Positions 49,944 to 62,255 of a DNA stretch of 64,000 nt are shown one piece after another (position 1 is the stretch's first letter; each line of letters starts with the position of its first letter). The position numbers and the translations under genes are program-made. Below the pieces are notes generated by a model. The model was given only the letters and a program-made list of their open reading frames with translations, searched no databases and had not been told where the DNA came from. Origin of the DNA: Halarchaeum rubridurum (GTDB lineage: Archaea > Halobacteriota > Halobacteria > Halobacteriales > Halobacteriaceae); the NCBI RefSeq assembly GCF_014647115.1, contig NZ_BMOO01000002.1:1-64000 (forward strand), read 5' to 3'.

Positions 49944-50201
49944 GACGGTCCGATACACGCGCGTCTATGCACATAAATCGTCGTATATGCGTCCTGATGG
50001 GACGACGATGGCGTATCGGCGGTCGCCCGCGGCCCCGCCGAGGCCGGTCATCCCCTCTGCCCGTCCTGGACACGTGCCGTCCGCGGCATCGCCGACCGAA
50101 CCGTAAGAACCGTTATGGATAGAACTATTTGGGTCGCGTCCGTACGCGAGGACAACAGCGGACCCACCAGCGCGGAGACGGTCGGCCGTTGTCCACAAAT
50201 C

Positions 50202-51644
50202 ATGTCACTTGCAACCAACGAGCGATACCGGATGTTCATCGGCGGCGAGCTCGTCGAATCGACGAGCGGGGAGTACCGCGAGACGATAGACCCCGCGACG
50301 GAGGAACCCATCGCGGAGTTCGCGGCCGGGACGAGCGAGGACGTCGACCGGGCGGTCGCGGCCGCCCGCGACGCCCTGCCCGAGTGGCAGGCGAAGACGC
50401 CCACGGAGCGCGGCGAGGTCGTCCAGCGACTCGCCGACGTCGTCCGCGAGAACGCCGAGAGCCTCGCGGAGGTCGAGACGCGCGACCAGGGTAAACCACT
50501 CTCCGACTCCCGCGGTGCCGTCGAAGGCCTCGCGCAGACCCTCGAGTACTACGCGGGCGCGGCGGGCAAACTTGAGGGGAAGAGCATCCCCACGGGCGGC
50601 GAGGAGGTCGACTTCACCGTTCGCGAGCCCTACGGCGTGAGCGCACAGATAATCCCGTGGAACGCCCCGCTCAACCTGATGGGACAGGGGACCGCGCCGG
50701 CGCTCGTCGCGGGTAACACCGTCGTCATCAAGCCCGCACCGACCACGCCGCTCTCCGCCGTCCACCTCGCGGAGCTCTTCGAGGACGCCGGCGTCCCCGA
50801 CGGCGTCGTCAACGTCGTCACCGGCGGGACGGAGCCGGGCGCGGCGCTCTCCGGCCACGAGGACGTCGACACCGTCTCCTTCACGGGGAGCGTCCAGACC
50901 GGCGCGGCCGTCATGGAGTCCGCCGCGGCCAACATTACGCCCGTCACGCTCGAACTCGGCGGGAAGAACCCCGCCGTCGTCCTCCCCGACGCGGACCTCG
51001 AGGAGGCCGCCGACGCCATCGCGCTCGGTATCTTCATGAACACCGGGCAGATATGCGCCGCCGCGGACCGCGCCATCGTCCACGAGGACGTCTACGACGA
51101 GTTCCTCGACCTCATCGTCGAACGCGCCGAGGCGTACGAACTCGGCGACGGCATCGACGACCCCGACATGGGCCCGCTCAACTACGAGGCGCACTTCGAG
51201 AAGGTGATGGACTACATCGACCTCGGCGTCGAGGAGGGCGCGACCATCGAGACCGGCGGCGAGGCCCTCGACCGCGAGGGCTACTTCGTCGAGCCCACGG
51301 TCTTCTCGGACGTCGAGACCGACATGCGAATCGCCCAGGAGGAGATATTCGGACCGGTGCTCTGCGTCATCCCGTTCTCGGAGCGCCGCGAGGCCATCGA
51401 CATCGCCAACGACGTCGAGATGGGCCTCACCGGCGGCGTCTTCTCGAACGACGTCCGCGCCGCGCTCAACACCGCCGAGCAGATAGAGGCGGGGAGCATC
51501 TACGTCAATCAGTGGTTCGGCGGCCCCATCGGCGCGCCCTTCGGCGGCTTCAAGAAGAGCGGTATCGGCCGCGAGATGGGGATGGAGGCCTTCGACTCCT
51601 ACCTCCAGACGAAGAACATCTGCGTCAACCTCACCGAGCGCTGA
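50202..51644 (+). CDS. Aldehyde dehydrogenase (succinate-semialdehyde/glycolaldehyde-type)
   Basis: A 480-residue NAD(P)-dependent enzyme. PWNAPLNLMG holds the oxyanion Asn, FTGSVQTGAAVM the cofactor loop, LELGGKNPAVVLPDADLEEA the Glu, and NTGQICAAADRAIV the nucleophile Cys; FGGFKKSGIGREMGMEAFDS is the C-terminal signature. It is a normal full-length enzyme. ATG 50202 (MSLATNERYRMFIGG) starts the family consensus; ATG 50115 in the same frame would add 29 residues. With the alcohol dehydrogenase read in the opposite direction from the same gap it would form an alcohol-to-acid pair. The 258-bp gap otherwise shows no gene. Confidence 0.93.
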   Translation: MSLATNERYRMFIGGELVESTSGEYRETIDPATEEPIAEFAAGTSEDVDRAVAAARDALPEWQAKTPTERGEVVQRLADVVRENAESLAEVETRDQGKPLSDSRGAVEGLAQTLEYYAGAAGKLEGKSIPTGGEEVDFTVREPYGVSAQIIPWNAPLNLMGQGTAPALVAGNTVVIKPAPTTPLSAVHLAELFEDAGVPDGVVNVVTGGTEPGAALSGHEDVDTVSFTGSVQTGAAVMESAAANITPVTLELGGKNPAVVLPDADLEEAADAIALGIFMNTGQICAAADRAIVHEDVYDEFLDLIVERAEAYELGDGIDDPDMGPLNYEAHFEKVMDYIDLGVEEGATIETGGEALDREGYFVEPTVFSDVETDMRIAQEEIFGPVLCVIPFSERREAIDIANDVEMGLTGGVFSNDVRAALNTAEQIEAGSIYVNQWFGGPIGAPFGGFKKSGIGREMGMEAFDSYLQTKNICVNLTER

Positions 51645-52665: not shown

Positions 52666-54207
52666 TCAGTCGTTCCGAACGAGGTCCGCGCCCTTCTCCG
52701 CGACGGCGATGGTGGGCGCGTTCGTGTTCCCGCTGGGGACGCGGGGCATCACGGAGGCGTCGATGACGCGGAGGCCGTCGATGCCGTGGAGTCGGAGGTC
52801 GTCGTCGACGACGGCCATCTCGTCGTCACCCATCTTGCACGTGCAGGTCGGGTGGTAGCCCGAGACGGCGTTGTTCCGGATGTACTCCGCGATCTCCTCG
52901 TCGCTCTGCGCGTCCTCGCCGGGGTAGAGTTCGCGTTCGCGGTACTCGGCGAGCGCGTCCGTCTCGCCGATACGGCGCGCGCGGCGGATGCCCGTGACGA
53001 AGTCGTCGACGTCTTTCTCGTCGAGCATGTACTGGGGGTCCATCACCGGGTCGTCGTGGGGGTCGGCGGACCGGAGCGTGACGCGCCCGCGGGCGCTCGG
53101 GCGCAGCGGCAGCACCATGATCGAGAACCCGGCCTGCGGGTCGTTCTCCGCGCCGGGCGCGAGCCCGTACTGGAGGTCGGGCGCGGGGAGGTCCGGGTCG
53201 GAGCGCTCGAAGGCACCGACCATCGAGCGGTCGTAGCGGGTGCCCCGCTCCTCGCCGTCCGCCGTCTCGATGGGCTCCGGGGCGGCCTCGATGGGTTTCG
53301 GGCTCTCGTAGACGACGGGGACCCGAAGGTGGTCCTGGAGGTTTCGCCCGACGCCCGGGAGGTCGTGGCGGACGTCGATGCCGTGCGCTTCGAGGTGGTC
53401 CGCGGGGCCGATACCCGAGAGCATCAGCAACTGGGGCGTCTGGAGCGCCCCCGCGGCGAGGAGGACCTCGCCGTCGTCCGCGACCTCCACGGTCTCCGTC
53501 GCGCCGTCCTGCTCGTAGGTCGCACCCGTCGCGCGGTCGCCGTCGAAGGTAAGTTCGGTGACGTGCGCGCCCGTCTCCACGTGGAGGTTCGGGCGGTCGA
53601 GGACGGGCTTGATGAACGCCGCCGCCGCGCTGTGGCGATGCCCGTTGTCCATCGTCGAGTGGTAGTAGCCGATACCCGACTGCTGTTCGCCGTTGAAGTC
53701 CCTGTTCACGTCGAGGCCCGCCTCCTCGCCGGCCTCGACGAGGGTCTCGCTGAACTCGTCCGGCGTCCCGCGCCAGACGCTCAGCGGCCCGTCGTCGCCG
53801 TGGTACGCCTCGTCGCCCTCGGCGTTCAGCGTCTCGGACCTCTTGAAGTAGTCGAGCATCGCGTCGTACCCCCATCCCTCGTTCCCGAGGTCCTCCCAGT
53901 TGTCGTAGTCGTAGGGGTGACCGCGGACGTACGCCATGCCGTTGATGACGCTCGACCCGCCGAGGGCCTTCCCGCGCGGCCAGTCGATGCGCCGGCCGTT
54001 GAGCCCGGGTTGGGGCTCGGTCTCGAACTCCCAGTCGAGGTCGGAGCCGAGCACGTCCCAGATGCGCGTGGGGTCCTTGACCATGTCGCGGTCCTCCGCC
54101 GGCTCCCCCGCCTCCAACAACAGCACGTCGACGTCCTCGTCTTCCGTCAGCCGGTGGGCGAGCACGCAGCCCGCGCTCCCACCGCCGACGATGAGGTAAT
54201 CGTACAT
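52666..54207 (-). CDS. GMC-family FAD alcohol oxidoreductase (choline dehydrogenase-like)
   Basis: A 513-residue flavoenzyme. YDYLIVGGGSAGCVLAHRL is the FAD-binding start; GKALGGSSVINGMAYVRGH and GALQTPQLLMLSGIGPADHL are GMC signatures 1 and 2. The active-site His lies in SGYHPTCTCKMG and the second residue is Asn in GNTNAPTIAVAEKGADLV, as in choline dehydrogenase-like and polyethylene-glycol dehydrogenase-like members. ATG 54207 is chosen because it begins exactly at the FAD strand; 54225 is an alternative. The promoter is in the AT-rich 54215-54260 segment. Substrates may be long-chain or polyether alcohols; choline is possible but no betaine aldehyde pair is specifically marked. Confidence 0.92.
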   Translation of the reverse strand: MYDYLIVGGGSAGCVLAHRLTEDEDVDVLLLEAGEPAEDRDMVKDPTRIWDVLGSDLDWEFETEPQPGLNGRRIDWPRGKALGGSSVINGMAYVRGHPYDYDNWEDLGNEGWGYDAMLDYFKRSETLNAEGDEAYHGDDGPLSVWRGTPDEFSETLVEAGEEAGLDVNRDFNGEQQSGIGYYHSTMDNGHRHSAAAAFIKPVLDRPNLHVETGAHVTELTFDGDRATGATYEQDGATETVEVADDGEVLLAAGALQTPQLLMLSGIGPADHLEAHGIDVRHDLPGVGRNLQDHLRVPVVYESPKPIEAAPEPIETADGEERGTRYDRSMVGAFERSDPDLPAPDLQYGLAPGAENDPQAGFSIMVLPLRPSARGRVTLRSADPHDDPVMDPQYMLDEKDVDDFVTGIRRARRIGETDALAEYRERELYPGEDAQSDEEIAEYIRNNAVSGYHPTCTCKMGDDEMAVVDDDLRLHGIDGLRVIDASVMPRVPSGNTNAPTIAVAEKGADLVRND

Positions 54208-54306
54208 GATTAACGATACACTCATTCATCGAATGATACCAAATAATTTCCGGTTATTCTCGGCGGCGCGGACGCCCCCTCGCGTGCGCGCCGTGCCGTC
54301 GCGCTA

Positions 54307-54407: not shown

Positions 54408-55319
54408 CTACAGATACTCCTTCGCAGACTCGATGGCGGTGATGCCGTCGCCGACGCCCGCGCCGATTTCGAAGACGCTGTCCTGTCGGACGTCGCCGGC
54501 CGCGAAGATGCCCTCGACGCTCGACTCCATGTTCGGGCCGACGACGACGGCCCCCTCGTCGTCTAAGGCCACCGCACCGTCGAGGAAGCCCGTGTTCGGA
54601 ACGGAGCCGACGTTGATGTTCAACCCGCCGACGTCGAGCGTCTCCGCCTCGCCCTCGGCGTTCACGACCGCGAGCCCGTCCACGACGCCGTCGCTCCCCA
54701 GGACCTCCGTGACCTCGACGCCCGTTCGGACCGTGAGGCCGTCCGCGTCCGCGACCTCCTCGCGGAACGCCGCGTCGGCCGACAGTTCCTCATCGGGCGT
54801 GAGGAGGAGGACCTCGGAGCCGTACTCCGTGAGGAAGACGGCGTCGATGGCGGCGTGGTTCCCGCCGCCGACGACCGCGAGGCGCTCGCCCTGATAGAGC
54901 GGGCCGTCGCACGTCGCGCAGTGGAAGATGCCGCGCCCCTCGTACTCCTCCTCGCCGGGCACGCCGAGCGGCTCCGAGTGGCTCCCCGTCGCCACGATGA
55001 CCGTCTCCGCCTCGTGGGCCGCGCCGCCCGCGCGGACGACGTGGGGCTCGTCGCCCTCGCCGGGTTCGACGGCCTCGACGGCCTCCAGTTCGACGTCGAC
55101 CTCGTACTGTTCGACCTGCTCGACGAGCCGCGACCGGAGCTCCGTGCCCGCGACGCCGTCCGGGAACCCCGGGAAGGACTCGACCTCGTGTCGGTTCACC
55201 AGTTCGCCGCCGATGGACTCCGCCTCGAAGAACAGCGTGTCGAGCGCGGCCCGGCCGGCGTACGTGCCCGCGGCCAACCCGGCGGGTCCCGTCCCGATGA
55301 TGAGAACGTCGTGTACCAT
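54408..55319 (-). CDS. Thioredoxin reductase-like FAD disulfide oxidoreductase
   Basis: A 303-residue two-domain flavoprotein. VLIIGTGPAGLAAGTYAGRA binds FAD, VVGGGNHAAIDAVFL binds NAD(P)H, and the redox-active disulfide is C134-A-T-C137 in FHCATCDGPLY. GIFAAGDVRQDSVFEIGAGV is the C-terminal FAD motif. It should pass electrons from NAD(P)H to a thioredoxin or a direct protein partner. ATG 55319 follows an AGCTTTTTT box by about 30 nt. It is divergent from the UGSC module across 119 bp, so it could supply reducing power to it; general redox housekeeping is the alternative. Confidence 0.92.
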   Translation of the reverse strand: MVHDVLIIGTGPAGLAAGTYAGRAALDTLFFEAESIGGELVNRHEVESFPGFPDGVAGTELRSRLVEQVEQYEVDVELEAVEAVEPGEGDEPHVVRAGGAAHEAETVIVATGSHSEPLGVPGEEEYEGRGIFHCATCDGPLYQGERLAVVGGGNHAAIDAVFLTEYGSEVLLLTPDEELSADAAFREEVADADGLTVRTGVEVTEVLGSDGVVDGLAVVNAEGEAETLDVGGLNINVGSVPNTGFLDGAVALDDEGAVVVGPNMESSVEGIFAAGDVRQDSVFEIGAGVGDGITAIESAKEYL

Positions 55320-55438
55320 TGTCGCCACGCGCAGGTCCGCGAGAGAGCGCAAAAAAGCTTTCTACCGCCCCGATTCGTGCGATTCGCCCGCGCCGGCGCA
55401 AAGCCCAAGGCGGCCGGCGGAGTAGCCGGCACCGACAC

Positions 55439-56521
55439 ATGGCCCGAGACGACGCCGACGACGAGTCCATAGCGGCGGTTTCGCGTGACCTCTACCGGCA
55501 GGGGATGACCGACGGCCTCCCCGTGATCCCGCCGACGGAGGCGCGCGTCGCGGAGATGCTACGCGGCACCGACACGCCCGACGACGCGGTCATCGGCCGC
55601 CTCGGGAACGACGACAACCCCATCACGGTCGCGGGGCTGGCGTCGAACGCCGTGATGGCGGGCTGTCTGCCCACTCACATGCCGGTGCTGGAGGCCGGCG
55701 TCCGCGCGCTCGCCGACCCGGACTCGAACTCCATCCAGTTCTCCGTCAGCACGGGCGGGTGGGCGTACCAGTGGGTCGTCAACGGCCCCGTCCGCGACGA
55801 CGTCGGGATCGCCGGCGGGACGGGCGCGTACGGGCCGAACTACCGCGCGAACCGGGCCATCGCCCGGGCGCTCGGGATCGCCTACCGGAACACCGCGAAG
55901 ATCCACCCCGGCGAGAAGGACATGGGCGTCATGGGCAACCCCTTCAAGTTCAGCCTGCTCCTCGGGGAGCACGAGGAAGCGAGCCCGTGGGAGCCGTTCC
56001 ACGTCACGGCCGGTCACGACGAGGCGGACAGCACGATCTCGCTCGCCGGGCCGAACAGCTTCGTCCAGTGGGAGCCCGCGGCGCGCGAGGCCGCGGCCGT
56101 CCTCCGCGGGATGCTCGCCAACACGCCGCCGGCGATGGTCGGCGGCGAACAGCAGGGCGGGGACTTCGACCAGACGATCACGTACGTCCTCTGTCCCGAG
56201 AGCATCGACCTCCTCGCGGACGCCGGCCTCTCGAAGCGCGACGTCAAGCGGTACGTCGCGGACAACTCCGCGATCCCGGTCGACGAGTTCCAGAAGGGCG
56301 TCCTCTGGGAGGGCGCACTGGAGGGGTACCACGGCCGCGTCGAGAACGCTCAGGTCCCACAGATCCGGGGCCCCGAGTACGTCCGGGTCGTCGCCGGCGG
56401 CGGCCGTACTGGCCAGTACGACGCCGTTATCGGCCCCTCCATCGGCGGGCCGGTCACGGAGGGAGTCGACTACCCCGACGACTGGCCGGCGCTCGTCGAG
56501 GAGTACGGCGCCGCCGAGTGA
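55439..56521 (+). CDS. UGSC-associated protein A, function unknown
   Basis: A 360-residue soluble protein with no recognised catalytic family. It opens with a helical segment, then MTDGLPVIPPTEARVAEML (24-41), a conserved Cys76 in NAVMAGCLPTHMPVLEAG, DPDSNSIQFSVSTGGWAYQW, RALGIAYRNTAKIHPGEKDM and MGNPFKFS. The same landmarks appear in the gene at 57175, at the same residue numbers at the start, so the two are recent or strongly constrained duplicates, with divergence mainly in residues 235-330. The unknown protein is found beside UGSC-motif proteins here on both sides, so a common complex or pathway is likely. ATG 55439 is preceded by GGAG about 20 nt upstream; the promoter is not clear. Confidence 0.75.
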   Translation: MARDDADDESIAAVSRDLYRQGMTDGLPVIPPTEARVAEMLRGTDTPDDAVIGRLGNDDNPITVAGLASNAVMAGCLPTHMPVLEAGVRALADPDSNSIQFSVSTGGWAYQWVVNGPVRDDVGIAGGTGAYGPNYRANRAIARALGIAYRNTAKIHPGEKDMGVMGNPFKFSLLLGEHEEASPWEPFHVTAGHDEADSTISLAGPNSFVQWEPAAREAAAVLRGMLANTPPAMVGGEQQGGDFDQTITYVLCPESIDLLADAGLSKRDVKRYVADNSAIPVDEFQKGVLWEGALEGYHGRVENAQVPQIRGPEYVRVVAGGGRTGQYDAVIGPSIGGPVTEGVDYPDDWPALVEEYGAAE

Positions 56522-56585
56522 CGCCGCGGAATCATCATTATCTGTCACCAAAAACTATATGATCCGTGCGTATAGTACCCATACT

Positions 56586-57155
56586 ATGGGTCTCGTAACC
56601 CCCTCTTCGACGGGCAACGACACGGAACAAAAGCCCCTCACGCCGCGTGTCGACTCCCTCGACGGGAAGCACATCGGGCTGTACGACAACGGGAAGCCGG
56701 CGGCTGAACCCCTCCTCACCGCGGTACAGGAGATGCTCGCCGAGCGCTACCCGGACGCGACGTTCGAGTGGTACCACGTCGAGCACCTCAACCAGATCAA
56801 GAACGACGAGGAGCAGGCCGCGGTCACCGAGTGGGCCGAGGACGTCGACGTCGCCATCGGCGCCATCGGCGACTGTGGCTCCTGCACGAAGTTCCTCACG
56901 TGGGGCATCGAGTTCATCGAGGACGCCGGGACGCCCGGCGTCGGCCTCATCGACGAGGGCTTCGAGCTCGACTACCAGTCGAACGCCGTCGAGCGCGGCC
57001 GCCCGCTGCGCTACAAGAAGACCCCGGTCCGCTGCGAGACGACGGACCTCGAACGCGTCCGCGAGGAGGTCACCGACGAAGTCCTCGACGGCATCGTCGA
57101 CGAGCTCACCCGCCCCCTGAACGACAAGGAACGCGCCGACCCGGTCGCGCAGTAA
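56586..57155 (+). CDS. UGSC-motif family protein, cysteine form
   Basis: A 189-residue protein. The motif GDCGSCTKFLTWGIEFIEDA carries C97-G-S-C100, the position where bacterial UGSC-family (seleno)proteins have Sec-Gly-Ser-Cys; the codon here is TGT (56874-56876), not TGA, so no selenocysteine. The context of the motif, a Cys pair at the start of a helix followed by GTPGVGLID, resembles the substrate-reducing subunits of glycine-reductase-type selenoenzymes (GrdB family), although the protein is much shorter. The strand-helix opening (GKHIGLYDNGKPAAEPLL) is Rossmann-like. A CTATATG box (about 56554-56560) lies about 28 nt before ATG 56586. The enzyme reaction is unknown; thiol-dependent reduction is a reasoned guess. 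Confidence 0.78.
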   Translation: MGLVTPSSTGNDTEQKPLTPRVDSLDGKHIGLYDNGKPAAEPLLTAVQEMLAERYPDATFEWYHVEHLNQIKNDEEQAAVTEWAEDVDVAIGAIGDCGSCTKFLTWGIEFIEDAGTPGVGLIDEGFELDYQSNAVERGRPLRYKKTPVRCETTDLERVREEVTDEVLDGIVDELTRPLNDKERADPVAQ

Positions 57156-57174
57156 CCCCACCCCGAGATATCTC

Positions 57175-58257
57175 ATGTCCCAGCAATCACCAGACGAGCA
57201 GTCGCTAGCGGAGATCAACCAATCGCTGTACGAGGACGGCCTGACGGACGGCCTCCCCGTGATCCCGCCGACGGACGAGCGGGTCGACGAGATGCTGCGC
57301 GGCACCGACAAGCCCCGCGACCACGTCCTCGGCGACCTCGGCAACAACGAGAACGTCATCACGGTCGAACAGCTCGCGTCGAACGCCGTGATGGCGGGCT
57401 GTCTCCCGACCTACATGCCGGTACTGGAGGCCGGCATCCGCGCGCTCGCCGACCCGGACTCGAACTCCATCCAGTTCTCCGTCAGCACCGGGTCGTGGGC
57501 GTACCAGTGGGTCGTCAACGGCCCCGTCCGCGAGGCGCTCGACATCGAGACGAGCTCCGGCGCGTTCGGCCCGAGCTTCCACGCGAACCAGACGATCCCC
57601 CGCGCGCTCGGGATCGCCTACCGGAACACCGCGAAGATCTACCCCGGCGAGAAGGACATGGGCGTCATGGGCAACCCCTTCAAGTTCAGCTTCCTCGCCG
57701 GCGAGAACCAGGACGCGAGCCCGTGGGAGCCCTATCACGTCACGAACGGCTACGACGAGGAGGACAGCACCATCTCGCTCTCCGGGCCGAACGGCTGGGT
57801 GCAGTGGTTCCCCGACGAGAACAACGCCGAGAACGTCCTGCGCAACATGATCGAGAACACGCCGACCTCGATGCGCGCGAGCTCCGGCGAGGACCTCAAC
57901 GCGACGATCACGCACTTCTTCAACCCCTACAACGCCGAGGAGCTGGAGAAGGAGGACCTGAGCAAGCAGGAGGTCAAGGAGTACCTCGTCGAGAACTCCT
58001 ATCGGACCCTGGACGGCTACGAGGAGCCCCGCGACGACACGGGGAAGGTTCCGCCCCGGCAGACCCAGCAGTACGCCGACACGGACGCCATCAACATCAT
58101 CGCCGTCGGCGGCCCGGGTCGCGTGAACGCCATCGCCGGCACCTCCATCGGCGGTCCCGTCACGAAGAAGATCGAGTTCCCCGACAACTGGGACGCGCTC
58201 CTCGACGAGTACGCGCTCGAAGAGAACTGGGTCCCGACCGAGGGCTTCTACGACTGA
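57175..58257 (+). CDS. UGSC-associated protein B, function unknown
   Basis: A 360-residue paralogue of the gene at 55439, placed 19 bp after the UGSC gene and probably co-transcribed with it. Conserved blocks: LTDGLPVIPPTDERVDEML (23-41), Cys76 in NAVMAGCLPTYMPVLEAG, DSNSIQFSVSTGSWAYQWVV, LGIAYRNTAKIYPGEKDM. The middle (about 235-330) differs from copy A: it has a DLNATITHFFNPYNAEELEK stretch and lacks the Cys of LCPESIDLL. The end IAGTSIGGPVTKKIEFPDNW matches copy A (IGPSIGGPVTEGVDYPDDW). The pair could form a heterodimer around UGSC. No secretion signal and no metal motif beyond the conserved Cys are seen. Confidence 0.75.
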   Translation: MSQQSPDEQSLAEINQSLYEDGLTDGLPVIPPTDERVDEMLRGTDKPRDHVLGDLGNNENVITVEQLASNAVMAGCLPTYMPVLEAGIRALADPDSNSIQFSVSTGSWAYQWVVNGPVREALDIETSSGAFGPSFHANQTIPRALGIAYRNTAKIYPGEKDMGVMGNPFKFSFLAGENQDASPWEPYHVTNGYDEEDSTISLSGPNGWVQWFPDENNAENVLRNMIENTPTSMRASSGEDLNATITHFFNPYNAEELEKEDLSKQEVKEYLVENSYRTLDGYEEPRDDTGKVPPRQTQQYADTDAINIIAVGGPGRVNAIAGTSIGGPVTKKIEFPDNWDALLDEYALEENWVPTEGFYD

Positions 58258-58601: not shown

Positions 58602-59633
58602 CTACGGGCAGACGAGGATCTTGCGCTCCTCGCTCTCGCCGTCGAGCAGCGTCTCGAAGCCCTCCTCGACGACGTCTTCGAGGTCGATGCGTGACGTGAC
58701 GTAGTCGTTGGCGTCGAGGTCGCCGCTGGCGAGCTGGCGGAGTACGACGTTGTACTCCTTGGCGACGCGGGGGCCGAGCTGGTGGGACGTCGAGCCGGCG
58801 ACCGTGCGCTGGTGGCGGACGAGCTTCTGCGGTTCGAAGGCGGCTTCGCCGCCGAAGACGCCGATGACCGTGGTGTGCCCGCCGGCGCGCGTGGCGCTGA
58901 CGGCCTGGTCGAGCGTCGCCTCGTGGCCGACGGCCTCGAAGGCGACGTCGGCGCCCGTCCCGGTCTCCTCGTGGATTCGTTCGACGGGGTCCTCCTCCTC
59001 GGGGTCGATGACCACGTCCGCGCCGAAGTCCGCGGCGACCTCTCGACGCGACGCCTGGGGTTCGGAGACGTAGATGGGGCCCGCGCCGGCGGAGGCGGCG
59101 AACCGCACCGCGCCGAGGCCGATGGGGCCCGCGCCGACGACGACGGCGCTGTCACCGACGCCGACGGGCGATTGGCGGACGGCGTGGAGGCCGACGCTTA
59201 TCGGCTGGGCGATGGCGGCGTCCGCCGGCGAGACGCCGTCGGGAAGCACGAGCGCGTTGTCGGCGTGTTCGACGACCGTCTCGGCGTAGCCGCCCGGTCG
59301 CGCCGACGTCGCGTCGAGGTTCCGACAGAGGTTGTACATCGCGTTCTCGCAGCACCAGCAGTCCATGCAGGGCGTGTGGGGGCTGAGGACGACGTCGGTC
59401 CCGACCTCGATGTCGACGCCGTCGCCGGTCTCGACGACGGTGCCGCCGATTTCGTGACCGAGCGTCGTCGGGTACCCCGTGTCGCCGTGGAGCCCGTCGG
59501 TGTAGAAGTGGAGGTCGGACCCGCATATCCCGCACGCGGCGACGTCGACGAGTATCTCGCCGTCGCTCGGGCTCGGTTCGTCGACGTCTTCGACGCGCAT
59601 GTCCTCCGGTCCGTAGAAGAGTGCGGCTCTCAT
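58602..59633 (-). CDS. Zinc-dependent alcohol/polyol dehydrogenase, copy 3
   Basis: A 343-residue enzyme closely related to copy 2 (48906). Catalytic Cys in AACGICGSDLHFY, GHE in LGHEIGG, structural zinc CMDCWCCENAMYNLC, Rossmann GAGPIGLGAVRF. The DLHFYTDG loop resembles sorbitol and 2,3-butanediol dehydrogenases. ATG 59633 follows a TTTATTAATGAATAAT stretch about 20-35 nt upstream that provides the TATA box. A hairpin (59674-59706) and a TGGTCAAAC site (59722-59730) lie further upstream, so the IclR regulator at 59910 is a candidate controller. Confidence 0.93.
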   Translation of the reverse strand: MRAALFYGPEDMRVEDVDEPSPSDGEILVDVAACGICGSDLHFYTDGLHGDTGYPTTLGHEIGGTVVETGDGVDIEVGTDVVLSPHTPCMDCWCCENAMYNLCRNLDATSARPGGYAETVVEHADNALVLPDGVSPADAAIAQPISVGLHAVRQSPVGVGDSAVVVGAGPIGLGAVRFAASAGAGPIYVSEPQASRREVAADFGADVVIDPEEEDPVERIHEETGTGADVAFEAVGHEATLDQAVSATRAGGHTTVIGVFGGEAAFEPQKLVRHQRTVAGSTSHQLGPRVAKEYNVVLRQLASGDLDANDYVTSRIDLEDVVEEGFETLLDGESEERKILVCP

Positions 59634-59909: not shown

Positions 59910-60701
59910 TCAGTCGTGTCGGTCGGCGGTGTGGATGTTTATCTCCACGCTGTTCGCCGCGCGCACGACCGCGTCCGCGAGTTCGTCCTGAAAGCGCTCC
60001 TCGCGCCACTTGCTCGCCGGGCCGGACATGCTAACCGACCCGAGGACCGTCCCGTCGTCGTCGAGGACCGGCGCGCCGATCGCGCGGTTCCCGTGTACGA
60101 CCTCCTCGTGGTTGATGGCGTACTCCTGCTCCCGAATCTCCGCGAGCTCCTCGTAGAGCGCCTCCTCGTCCGTGACCGTGTGGCTCGTGTACGCGGGGAG
60201 CCCGTGTCGCTCGACGATCTCCCGCGTTCGCTCCTCGGGGAGGTGAGCGAGAATCGCCTTCCCGCCGGCCGTACAGTGGATGTGCGTCTGCGGACGGCCG
60301 CGTTTGGCCGTGTGGACCTCCTTGCCGACCGCCTCCTCGCCGGACATCTCGTAGAGGGTGAGGGTCTTCCCGCGGTACTCCGTGACGAGGTGAGCGACGG
60401 CGTCGTACTCGTGCGCGAGGTCGTCGACCTCGGTCTTCGCCGCCCGGTAGAGCGGGCTCTGTCGCCGCACCCACTCGCCGAACGGGACGAACTCCATTCC
60501 AAGTTTGTACTCGCCGTCGACCTGTTGGACGAAGCCGTTCGACGCGAGCGTCGAGAGGTGCGTGTGGACCGTCCCCGGCGAGAGGTCCGTCCCCGCCGCG
60601 AGCTCCGAGACGGTGCTCGCGCCCCGTTCGCCGAGCTCCTGCAGGATGTCGCACGTCCGGTCGACGGACTGAATCTTCCGTCCACCCGTGTTCTCGCTCA
60701 T
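59910..60701 (-). CDS. IclR-family regulator 2
   Basis: A 263-residue regulator: winged helix (SVDRTCDILQELGERGASTV, then LSPGTVHTHLSTLASNGFV) and IclR effector domain (HIHCTAGGKAILAHLPEE, then NRAIGAPVLDDDGTVLGSVS). ATG 60701 is chosen since ACGTTTATGATG (about 60723-60734) lies about 28 nt upstream; ATG 60728 would lie inside that box. It is divergent from a PaaK-like ligase and upstream of alcohol dehydrogenase copy 3. The repeated TGGTCAAA(C/T) sites at 59722, 60741 and 60849 (inverted) are candidate binding sites. Likely inducer: a CoA-pathway intermediate or an alcohol-derived acid. Confidence 0.93.
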   Translation of the reverse strand: MSENTGGRKIQSVDRTCDILQELGERGASTVSELAAGTDLSPGTVHTHLSTLASNGFVQQVDGEYKLGMEFVPFGEWVRRQSPLYRAAKTEVDDLAHEYDAVAHLVTEYRGKTLTLYEMSGEEAVGKEVHTAKRGRPQTHIHCTAGGKAILAHLPEERTREIVERHGLPAYTSHTVTDEEALYEELAEIREQEYAINHEEVVHGNRAIGAPVLDDDGTVLGSVSMSGPASKWREERFQDELADAVVRAANSVEINIHTADRHD

Positions 60702-60923
60702 ACCGTTCTGGAGCCACCCAAACATCATAAACGTTTGTGGTGGTCAAATCGGTCGGTCGCCGCGGCGTCTCGGGCAGCAAACCGACACGCGCACACACGA
60801 GGGGGTCGACCGGACACCGTATCGCGCCGCTCTCGCCCGCCATCGGTCGTTTGACCACGTGATGGGGTACGCGGATCGGAGTAACCGATAGGTTAATCAT
60901 GGTAGACTGTGAGTCGTCGCAAC
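60702..60923. promoter_or_regulatory. Divergent promoter with repeated TGGTCAAA motifs
   Basis: TGGTCAAAT at 60741-60749 and its inverted form GTTTGACCA at 60849-60857 bracket the middle of this region; a third copy, TGGTCAAAC, is at 59722-59730. CCACCCAAACAT and ACGTTTGTGGTGG (60715-60743) form an imperfect palindrome over the IclR2 TATA box. GGTTAATC (60890-60897) is the TATA-like box of the ligase, about 27-34 nt before ATG 60924. Confidence 0.5.
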
Positions 60924-62255
60924 ATGGCTGACGTCTATGACGAGATAGAGGTCCAACCGTGGGACGACGTGCTCGCCGAGCACGAACGTCTCCTGCCGAA
61001 ACAGTTCGACTACCTCGTCGAACACTCGGACTACTACCGACGCAGGTTCGACGAGTGGGGTGTCGACCCCGGCGACGTCACCTCCTTTGAGGACCTGCGC
61101 GAGCTCCCCTTCATGACGAAGCAGGACGAGCGGGACTGCCAGGAGGTCCAGACGGCCGCGAAACCGCTCGGGAAGCACCAGACGGCACCGAAGTCCGCGC
61201 TCAACCGCACGATTTCCTCCTCTGGGACGACCGGGAAACCGACGTACTTCGGGCTCACCGCGCAGGACCGGCGCGACTGGAACGAGGTCCAGACCCGGGC
61301 GTTCTACACCGCCGGCGTCCGCCCCGAGGACACCGTCCTCTTCGGTGCCGGCCAGACGATGGTCACCGGCGGGACGCCCTACTTCGAGTCCCTGACGAAA
61401 CTCGGCGCGAACGTCGTGCCCGCGGGCGGGGAGAGCACCGAACGCCTCCTCTCCGTCGGCAAGGACATCAACGCGGACGTCCTCTGGACGACGACGTCGC
61501 ACATCCGCTATCTCGGCGAGAACGCGGAGGACGTCTGCGGCGTCGCTCCCGAGGACCTCTCGATGCACAAGGTCATCGGCGGCGCCGGCCCCGGCATCGC
61601 CAACCCCGAAATCCGTCAGGAGTTCTACGACACGTGGGACGCCTCGCTCGTCCGCGAGGGGATGGGCCTCGGCGACATCCTCGGTTGCATGTGGGCGGAG
61701 TGCGAGGAGGAGGACGGGATGCACTTCCACGCGCAGGGACACGTCCACGTCGAGCTCATCGATCCGGAGACGGGCGAGGCGAGGCCGTTCGAGGACGGCG
61801 CGGAGGGCGAACTCGTCTACACGCACCTCCGGCGCGAGGCGACGCCGCTCGTCCGCTTCCGCTCCGGCGACTACGCGAAGGTGACCGGCACCGAGTGCGC
61901 TTGCGGGCGCACCGCGCCGAAGATGCAGTGTATCGGCCGCGCCGACGACATGCTCATCTACAAGGGCATGAACGTCTTCCCGTCCGCGGTCCGCGACGTC
62001 GTCTCCGAGGTCGAGGGCGCGGCCCCGCGCATTCGCGTGCTCACGCCCGACGCCGACAAGGTCCACTTCGAGGACCCCATCGAGATCGAGATCGCGCGCG
62101 AGGCCGGCACCGACCGCGCCGACGACGCGATAATCGAGGACGTCGTCTCCGAGGTCCGCGGACAGCTCAAGGTCCGCGTCGACCCGACCATCGTCGACGT
62201 CGAGGACCTCCCGCCGTCCGAGTACAAGACGGACCTCATCGAAGTCCGCGCCTAA
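60924..62255 (+). CDS. PaaK-type (phenylacetate-CoA ligase-like) AMP-forming ligase
   Basis: A 443-residue adenylate-forming enzyme of the phenylacetate-CoA ligase family, usual length. The P-loop is RTISSSGTTGKPTYFGLT (near 92-109); GLGDILGCMWAEC holds the adenylate region; FRSGDYAKVTGTECACGRTA contains the conserved Asp and zinc-like CxC; GRADDMLIYKGMNVFPSAV the hinge. It activates an aromatic or other carboxylate to its CoA thioester. ATG 60924 (MADVYDEIEVQPWDD) is placed by the TATA-like box at 60890-60897. It is divergent from IclR regulator 2, the usual arrangement for a regulated catabolic ligase. No phenylacetate epoxidase genes are here, so the true acid may differ. Confidence 0.9.
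   Translation: MADVYDEIEVQPWDDVLAEHERLLPKQFDYLVEHSDYYRRRFDEWGVDPGDVTSFEDLRELPFMTKQDERDCQEVQTAAKPLGKHQTAPKSALNRTISSSGTTGKPTYFGLTAQDRRDWNEVQTRAFYTAGVRPEDTVLFGAGQTMVTGGTPYFESLTKLGANVVPAGGESTERLLSVGKDINADVLWTTTSHIRYLGENAEDVCGVAPEDLSMHKVIGGAGPGIANPEIRQEFYDTWDASLVREGMGLGDILGCMWAECEEEDGMHFHAQGHVHVELIDPETGEARPFEDGAEGELVYTHLRREATPLVRFRSGDYAKVTGTECACGRTAPKMQCIGRADDMLIYKGMNVFPSAVRDVVSEVEGAAPRIRVLTPDADKVHFEDPIEIEIAREAGTDRADDAIIEDVVSEVRGQLKVRVDPTIVDVEDLPPSEYKTDLIEVRA

Follow-up and report, generated by a model that had tools for sequence, protein, structure and literature searches.

A UGSC family protein of Halarchaeum rubridurum, its partner protein and a predicted dedicated thioredoxin-reductase-like flavoprotein

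Introduction

What might a small protein with a Cys-Gly-Ser-Cys motif do in a halophilic archaeon, where its gene lies between two copies of an unassigned gene and close to that of a flavoprotein resembling thioredoxin reductase (TrxR)? The question is raised by a stretch of 64,000 nucleotides from Halarchaeum rubridurum (assembly GCF_014647115.1, contig NZ_BMOO01000002.1, positions 1 to 64,000), referred to here as the window. The protein belongs to the UGSC family, one of the most frequent selenoprotein families recorded in a metagenome survey of the ocean (PMC2398784). The family appears in the literature as a predicted selenoprotein with no assigned function, and neither the partner protein nor the dedicated flavoprotein reported below is described there (PMC2398784, PMC13188914); when we searched the literature for what UGSC does, we likewise found nothing. 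An earlier note, made from the sequence of the window alone, proposed that the following four genes encode a thiol-driven enzyme system:

54408..55319, minus strand: TrxR-family flavoprotein, predicted to be dedicated to UGSC (Pfam Pyr_redox_2, 5.9e-36; TIGR01292, 273.7 bits), of a type that, among 23 haloarchaeal genomes, occurs solely in those with window-type UGSC
55439..56521, plus strand: protein A, 360 residues, UGSC partner of unassigned family, with Cys76 conserved in the family alignment
56586..57155, plus strand: UGSC family protein in its Cys form, 189 residues (PF24696, 3.5e-26), with Cys97-Gly-Ser-Cys100 and a GrdB-like domain according to hhalign
57175..58257, plus strand: protein B, 360 residues, a second copy of A (58% identical), with Cys76 as its sole cysteine

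Here, we ask whether these genes form a unit, to which known enzymes they are related and in which direction the system would work.

Results

The four open reading frames were confirmed with the positions and motifs given for them, namely the CATC and CGSC motifs, Cys76 in both A and B, and the 119 bp between the start codons of the divergent A and TrxR-like genes. The UGSC protein scores 92.8 bits against PF24696, above the Pfam cut-off of 25, and is a member of this family; against the NCBI equivalog NF041046 it reaches 70.9 bits, under the cut-off of 125. PADLOC gave no match for A/UGSC, and a role as defence genes was rejected.

Among 392 Halobacteria genomes, a search with an alignment of protein A retrieved 22 genomes and a search with PF24696 the identical 22, with A adjoining UGSC in each of them (hypergeometric probability of the co-occurrence 1.8e-36, relatedness ignored). 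A haloarchaeal UGSC without a flanking A gene, which the earlier note had named as evidence against its proposal, was not found in this set. When GTDB contigs were scanned with an alignment of A, more than 592 matches came up, and 80 loci were kept. UGSC is adjacent to A on the same strand in 74 of the 80, across bacteria and archaea; it lies 2-4 kb away in two of the remaining six, and four have no UGSC in the stretch examined (L084 being cut off by the contig end just before A). A/UGSC loci occur in Betaproteobacteria, Chloroflexota, Rokubacteria, Methylomirabilota, Nitrospinota, Deltaproteobacteria, Archaeoglobi and haloarchaea. In about a dozen bacterial loci, UGSC and A are encoded by a single open reading frame, and further fusions occur on Sporomusa, Vibrio and Variovorax plasmids. 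An AlphaFold model of one fusion (L031:7377-9086) with a predicted local distance difference test score (pLDDT) of 94.1 and a predicted template modelling score of 0.93 suggests that the UGSC and A halves pack in a defined way; a Foldseek search with this model gave no match at E<=0.001, only partial Rossmann-like ones. The A-UGSC arrangement recurs across independent lineages and is therefore not due to chance. Co-occurrence, adjacency and natural fusions bear out A and UGSC as a conserved unit, and the core inference, that A (in one or two copies) and UGSC are probably two parts of one enzyme, holds on this evidence.

One Chloroflexi genome (JACPQD01) carries eight A/UGSC loci (L021, L027, L028, L029, L044, L079, L083 and L096); some of these paralogues are in tandem, and one copy has no selenocysteine (Sec) or Cys motif.

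At the position of Cys97, nearly all UGSC genes of bacteria carry a TGA codon in frame, beyond which the frame stays open, in agreement with the idea that UGSC is often a selenoprotein in bacteria. The window protein is not a selenoprotein: codons 97 and 100 both specify Cys, and the genome has no tRNA-Sec above the Rfam cut-off, the best match being a tRNA-Ser. All haloarchaeal UGSC proteins are of the Cys form, occupy several separate placements on the A tree and fall into three types, the window type (GAIGDCGSCTKF/YL), the YGDCGSCSSWT type and the YGDCGSCTSWC type. As the latter two are nested among bacterial Sec forms, the change from Sec to Cys took place more than once. The suggestion that a Cys version in an aerobic halophile would be new did not hold, since it is already present in 22 of the 392 haloarchaeal genomes, where several of the proteins are named 'UGSC family (seleno)protein' by NCBI.

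Two Archaeoglobi genomes encode a UGSC with an in-frame TGA (HCD-U-GSCTAW), at L014:8422-9072 (plus strand) in JdFR-42 (G258) and at L016:2112-2756 (minus strand) in G249. Both also have a tRNA-Sec and a SelB-family gene, so that these are apparent archaeal selenoproteins of the UGSC family. A PSTK-SelB fusion has been reported from one Archaeoglobi species (PMC9499178). Four other loci (L023, L065, L072 and L094) keep Sec and have Ser or another residue for the second Cys (GHUGSSTSW, GHUGASASW), which suggests that some lineages can do without the resolving Cys. Neither Sec nor Cys is found at the motif in the UGSC-A fusions on plasmids of Sporomusa termitida (L102:8323-10047; LGDMGTS) and Vibrio europaeus (L103:8323-10008; LADMGTS), which lie near aconitase X and DUF126 genes.

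Proteins A and B have no match in Pfam or NCBIfam, and a PDB sequence search with A found none. A relationship of A to GrdE/PrdA (PF09338) was rejected based on an hhalign probability of 0.1% between the A alignment and GrdE and on the missing Pfam match. With a structure model of protein A alone (pLDDT 86.6), Foldseek listed a few matches at E ~1e-3 to cyclic amide hydrolases and fumarases, which were judged unreliable at template modelling (TM) scores of at most 0.24. In the family alignments, D25, G26, C76, R143, N151 and E177 are among the invariant residues, and Cys76 is invariant across 46 aligned relatives; one Archaeoglobi paralogue has Ala at this position. Two Archaeoglobi A-family proteins (L015:8844-10169 and L017:1116-2435) carry an N-terminal extension of 100-125 residues, with no UGSC in the stretch examined. 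Triads of the form A-UGSC-A' are present in the window type and the YGDCGSCSSWT type. The two A proteins share 58-77% identity inside triad loci and 30-34% across the two types, which suggests two separate duplications of A, with gene conversion as an alternative. Many loci, including many of the haloarchaeal ones, have a single A, so that of the conserved A-UGSC-B triad predicted for this locus the A-UGSC part stands and B is optional. We regard B as an elaboration, which could possibly serve a heteromeric assembly.

A comparison by hhalign of the UGSC alignment with an alignment of the GRDB family, built from the loci studied here, gave a probability of 95.6% and an E-value of 1.2e-8 over 114 columns, the latter a single-comparison value and as such generous, and five control comparisons gave 0.1-3.3%. 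C97 and C100 fall on the Sec/Cys columns of the GRDB family, and one GrdB from the genomes examined reads TUGSCT at its Sec. The relationship is seen by profile-profile comparison only: the UGSC profile hidden Markov model had no direct match to the GRDB loci, the window UGSC protein had no match to PF07355 in Pfam at E<=1, and PDB sequence searches with the UGSC and GRDB profiles returned designed proteins only. Membership in glycine/proline reductase was rejected, as PF07355 is not matched directly and A is not GrdE/PrdA. The link to GrdB/PrdB drawn in the earlier note is retained as a remote relationship with aligned Sec/Cys positions. Given this match and a partner unrelated to GrdE/PrdA, UGSC is best regarded as a short relative of GrdB's catalytic domain that has another partner.

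A TrxR-family gene is found within 8 kb in 13 of the 14 window-type haloarchaeal loci, in varying gene orders (TrxR divergent from A-UGSC-A, UGSC-A-TrxR, and TrxR-UGSC-A). The genomic link between UGSC and TrxR postulated from the single locus is real and recurs. Bacterial Cys forms on plasmids are also often TrxR-linked, as in Arthrobacter (trxB-trxA-A-UGSC) and Roseovarius (A-UGSC-trxB), and a TrxR-linked Cys locus (CGSC) of Variovorax SRS16 has two glucose-methanol-choline (GMC) oxidoreductases and an aldehyde dehydrogenase nearby. Overall, TrxR linkage was seen at 18/31 Cys loci versus 1/93 Sec loci, or at 19/32 Cys loci after hand-assignment of the Variovorax SRS16 locus, which the script had left unclassified. 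The TrxR label switches seven times across the A tree, and supported branches force at least five of these changes.

In a census of 23 haloarchaeal genomes, which have one to five TrxR-family genes each, 14 members of a distinct flavoprotein type were counted. Their distribution coincides with that of the 14 window-type UGSC loci: all 13 genomes with such loci have the type, and the ten others, among them the congener G003, lack it (13/13 versus 0/10; Fisher's exact test 8.7e-7, to be read with the caution on independence given below). Proteins of this type form clades apart from canonical TrxR and retain the CxxC motif, whereas HRRxxFRA has given way to other residues, which are often acidic. 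On the contigs of three genomes (G504, G306 and G607), the gene and A are 17-28 kb apart, with a canonical-type TrxR gene nearer to A in G306 and G607. The flavoprotein of the window scores below the TIGR01292 equivalog cut-off of 343.45, as do most of the canonical haloarchaeal TrxR enzymes, which fall just below it; its CxxC is kept at the NAD(P)-domain position (CATC, residues 134-137), and LLTPDEEL stands in place of HRRxxFRA. In Rossmann folds, acidic residues at this motif suggest a preference for NADH over NADPH. With the NADPH motif lost and acidic residues in its relatives, the flavoprotein probably uses NADH or another donor.

The genes surrounding the four in the window are the following:

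50115..51644 (start may be 50205), plus strand: aldehyde dehydrogenase, betaine-aldehyde-dehydrogenase-like, a frequent neighbour of window-type loci
52666..54225, minus strand: GMC (choline-dehydrogenase-like) alcohol oxidoreductase by NCBIfam, a conserved neighbour of window-type loci
58602..59633, minus strand: zinc alcohol dehydrogenase, a conserved neighbour of window-type loci
59910..60728, minus strand: IclR-type regulator, with a ~60% identical homologue near window-type loci in three genomes of another family
60909..62255, plus strand: PaaK-like acyl-CoA ligase, whose homologues close to these three loci are ~75% identical

Most window-type loci outside the genus have homologues of the GMC oxidoreductase (67-83% identical, in six loci), of the zinc alcohol dehydrogenase (72-78%, in the same loci) and of the aldehyde dehydrogenase. 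The alcohol and aldehyde oxidation genes noticed around the locus are hence conserved neighbours of the window type; simpler UGSC-A-TrxR loci (L207-L211) are without this set. At the other haloarchaeal types and in bacteria, A/UGSC is found among CoA-transferases, acyl-CoA dehydrogenases and carboxylate transporters. TctC, with 49 of 120 in a Pfam count of Sec-type neighbours, hints at imported carboxylates, a weak hint as Burkholderiales have very many TctC genes. These neighbourhoods support a role of A/UGSC in the breakdown of imported organic compounds, with substrates that would differ among paralogues. Positions 36153-62255 of the window form a large catabolic island with several aldehyde and zinc alcohol dehydrogenases, short-chain dehydrogenases/reductases, an acyl-CoA dehydrogenase, an AMP ligase, a hydroxyacyl-CoA dehydrogenase/hydratase fusion, a thiolase and IclR regulators.

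Discussion

We propose that A and UGSC form a thiol-driven, GrdB-like reductase that is fed by the dedicated flavoprotein and works within a catabolic island of GMC, aldehyde and zinc alcohol dehydrogenases, and we give this reading a probability of roughly 0.55. Family membership of A and UGSC, their pairing and the genomic link to a candidate electron donor come directly from the sequence comparisons, whereas we infer the reductive direction. UGSC would be the nucleophilic or redox subunit, whose Sec or Cys97 makes an attack on a small substrate, an organic acid or alcohol-derived compound, at an activated carbon-heteroatom bond or one like it. The substrate could be held by A through the region of the conserved residues Cys76, Arg143, Asn151 and Glu177. 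Cys100 might then resolve the adduct, and the resulting disulfide would be re-reduced by a donor of the thioredoxin-reductase type, in the window the divergently encoded TrxR-like flavoprotein, probably driven by NADH or another donor. The product could be passed on to the adjoining GMC oxidoreductase, the aldehyde and alcohol dehydrogenases and the acyl-CoA steps.

Several observations weigh against this proposal. The genes near A/UGSC in the window are mainly oxidative, and a linked flavoprotein without the NADPH motif could run in the opposite direction. No TrxR gene lies within ~8 kb at the other two haloarchaeal Cys types or in Archaeoglobi, so that a local TrxR is not obligatory. The Cys and Sec labels and the TrxR labels are clustered on the tree, and Fisher values therefore overstate independence; only four supported independent Cys/TrxR pairs are available, two or three in favour and none or one against, which makes the correlation itself suggestive, not proven. 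The profile match to GrdB spans only ~114 columns with a generous E-value, and protein A is, as judged from sequence, without a relative of known function.

The main competing explanation of the flavoprotein, though unlikely, is that it acts as a flavin dithiol oxidase keeping C97 and C100 oxidised. The catabolic island would then be an oxidative one, with A/UGSC as an enzyme that oxidises its substrate or forms disulfides. Oxidases of the GliT/HlmI type do have the TrxR fold, all linked flavoproteins of the window type have lost HRRxxFRA and retain CxxC, and the host is an aerobic halophile with oxidases and dehydrogenases encoded next to the locus. Bacterial Cys-type loci, however, carry a canonical HRR-type TrxR (L104, L105, L108 and L217), in Arthrobacter along with a thioredoxin, which points to reduction, and NADH binding would be in keeping with the acidic residues that stand in place of the lost motif. 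Next in rank, and also unlikely, UGSC would not be the catalytic subunit of a metabolic enzyme but would look after the enzymes of the pathway as a general protein of thiol-disulfide or peroxide repair. This would agree with the fact that UxxC selenoproteins are mostly thiol oxidoreductases, and a 2008 survey proposed a thioredoxin-like fold for UGSC (PMC2398784). A repair protein is hard to reconcile with obligate pairing and fusion with A, with paralogue expansions such as the eight loci of one Chloroflexi genome, or with a profile match to GrdB/PrdB; moreover, the predicted topology is Rossmann-like alpha/beta, and there is no thioredoxin among the Foldseek matches listed.

If A were the enzyme proper, the Sec or Cys of UGSC might serve as a nucleophile without net redox change, for instance in acyl or carboxymethyl transfer. 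We consider this hydrolase or lyase chemistry quite improbable: the fold matches that suggest it, between A and cyclic amide hydrolases or class I fumarases, are weak, the leading ones having TM scores of at most 0.24 and root-mean-square deviations of ~12-18 A, and, at least for the Cys forms, TrxR linkage indicates redox cycling. It would fit the variants with Ser or another residue for the second Cys and the Sporomusa and Vibrio fusions that have neither Sec nor Cys and lie near aconitase X. That C97 and C100 form a structural or metal-binding site is very improbable, even though CxxC pairs often bind metals and UGSC has one more cysteine (C150), since most bacterial members have Sec in place of C97, as would not be expected of a structural site, and C97 is aligned with the selenocysteine of GrdB/PrdB.

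Going beyond the window, and tentatively, at somewhat less than even odds, A and UGSC may represent a previously unrecognised enzyme class of bacteria and archaea that uses Sec or Cys. It would be a thiol-driven reductase in which a catalytic domain resembling that of GrdB joins a substrate-binding protein of new fold, with many substrate-specific paralogues for the catabolism of organic acids and alcohols, and its haloarchaeal Cys branch would have evolved its own NADH-type TrxR-like donor, offsetting the loss of selenium. The system is widespread and conserved, and no functional description of it was found in the literature; the haloarchaeal Cys form itself is not new. An obligate partner, a GrdB/PrdB-type catalytic domain and a thioredoxin-type donor turn the orphan UGSC family into a testable enzyme, and the haloarchaeal form, needing no selenocysteine machinery, lends itself best to expression and assay. 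The dedicated flavoprotein would offer a natural case of a Sec enzyme rebuilt with Cys.

Among known families, the window protein belongs to UGSC (PF24696/NF041046) by the Pfam cut-off, with CGSC for UGSC, and falls under the NCBI equivalog cut-off. The 2008 ocean survey described a domain, Unknown_1, that is fused to UGSC and was said to hold a conserved Cys like other fused domains (PMC2398784); by this description, it is possibly the same domain as A. The flavoprotein resembles thioredoxin-disulfide reductase (TIGR01292) in its FAD and NAD(P) domains and its CATC redox motif, but lies in a clade apart from the canonical enzyme of the same genome (L256) and has lost HRRxxFRA. With GrdB/PrdB (PF07355), the subunits of glycine/sarcosine/betaine and D-proline reductase, UGSC shares the aligned Sec/Cys and resolving Cys, a catabolic setting and Sec in most relatives, and its genomic linkage to TrxR genes may parallel their coupling to thioredoxin reductase; it differs from them in being a single short domain with a partner that is not GrdE/PrdA. 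A/UGSC might therefore act like glycine and proline reductase and yet be a separate system.

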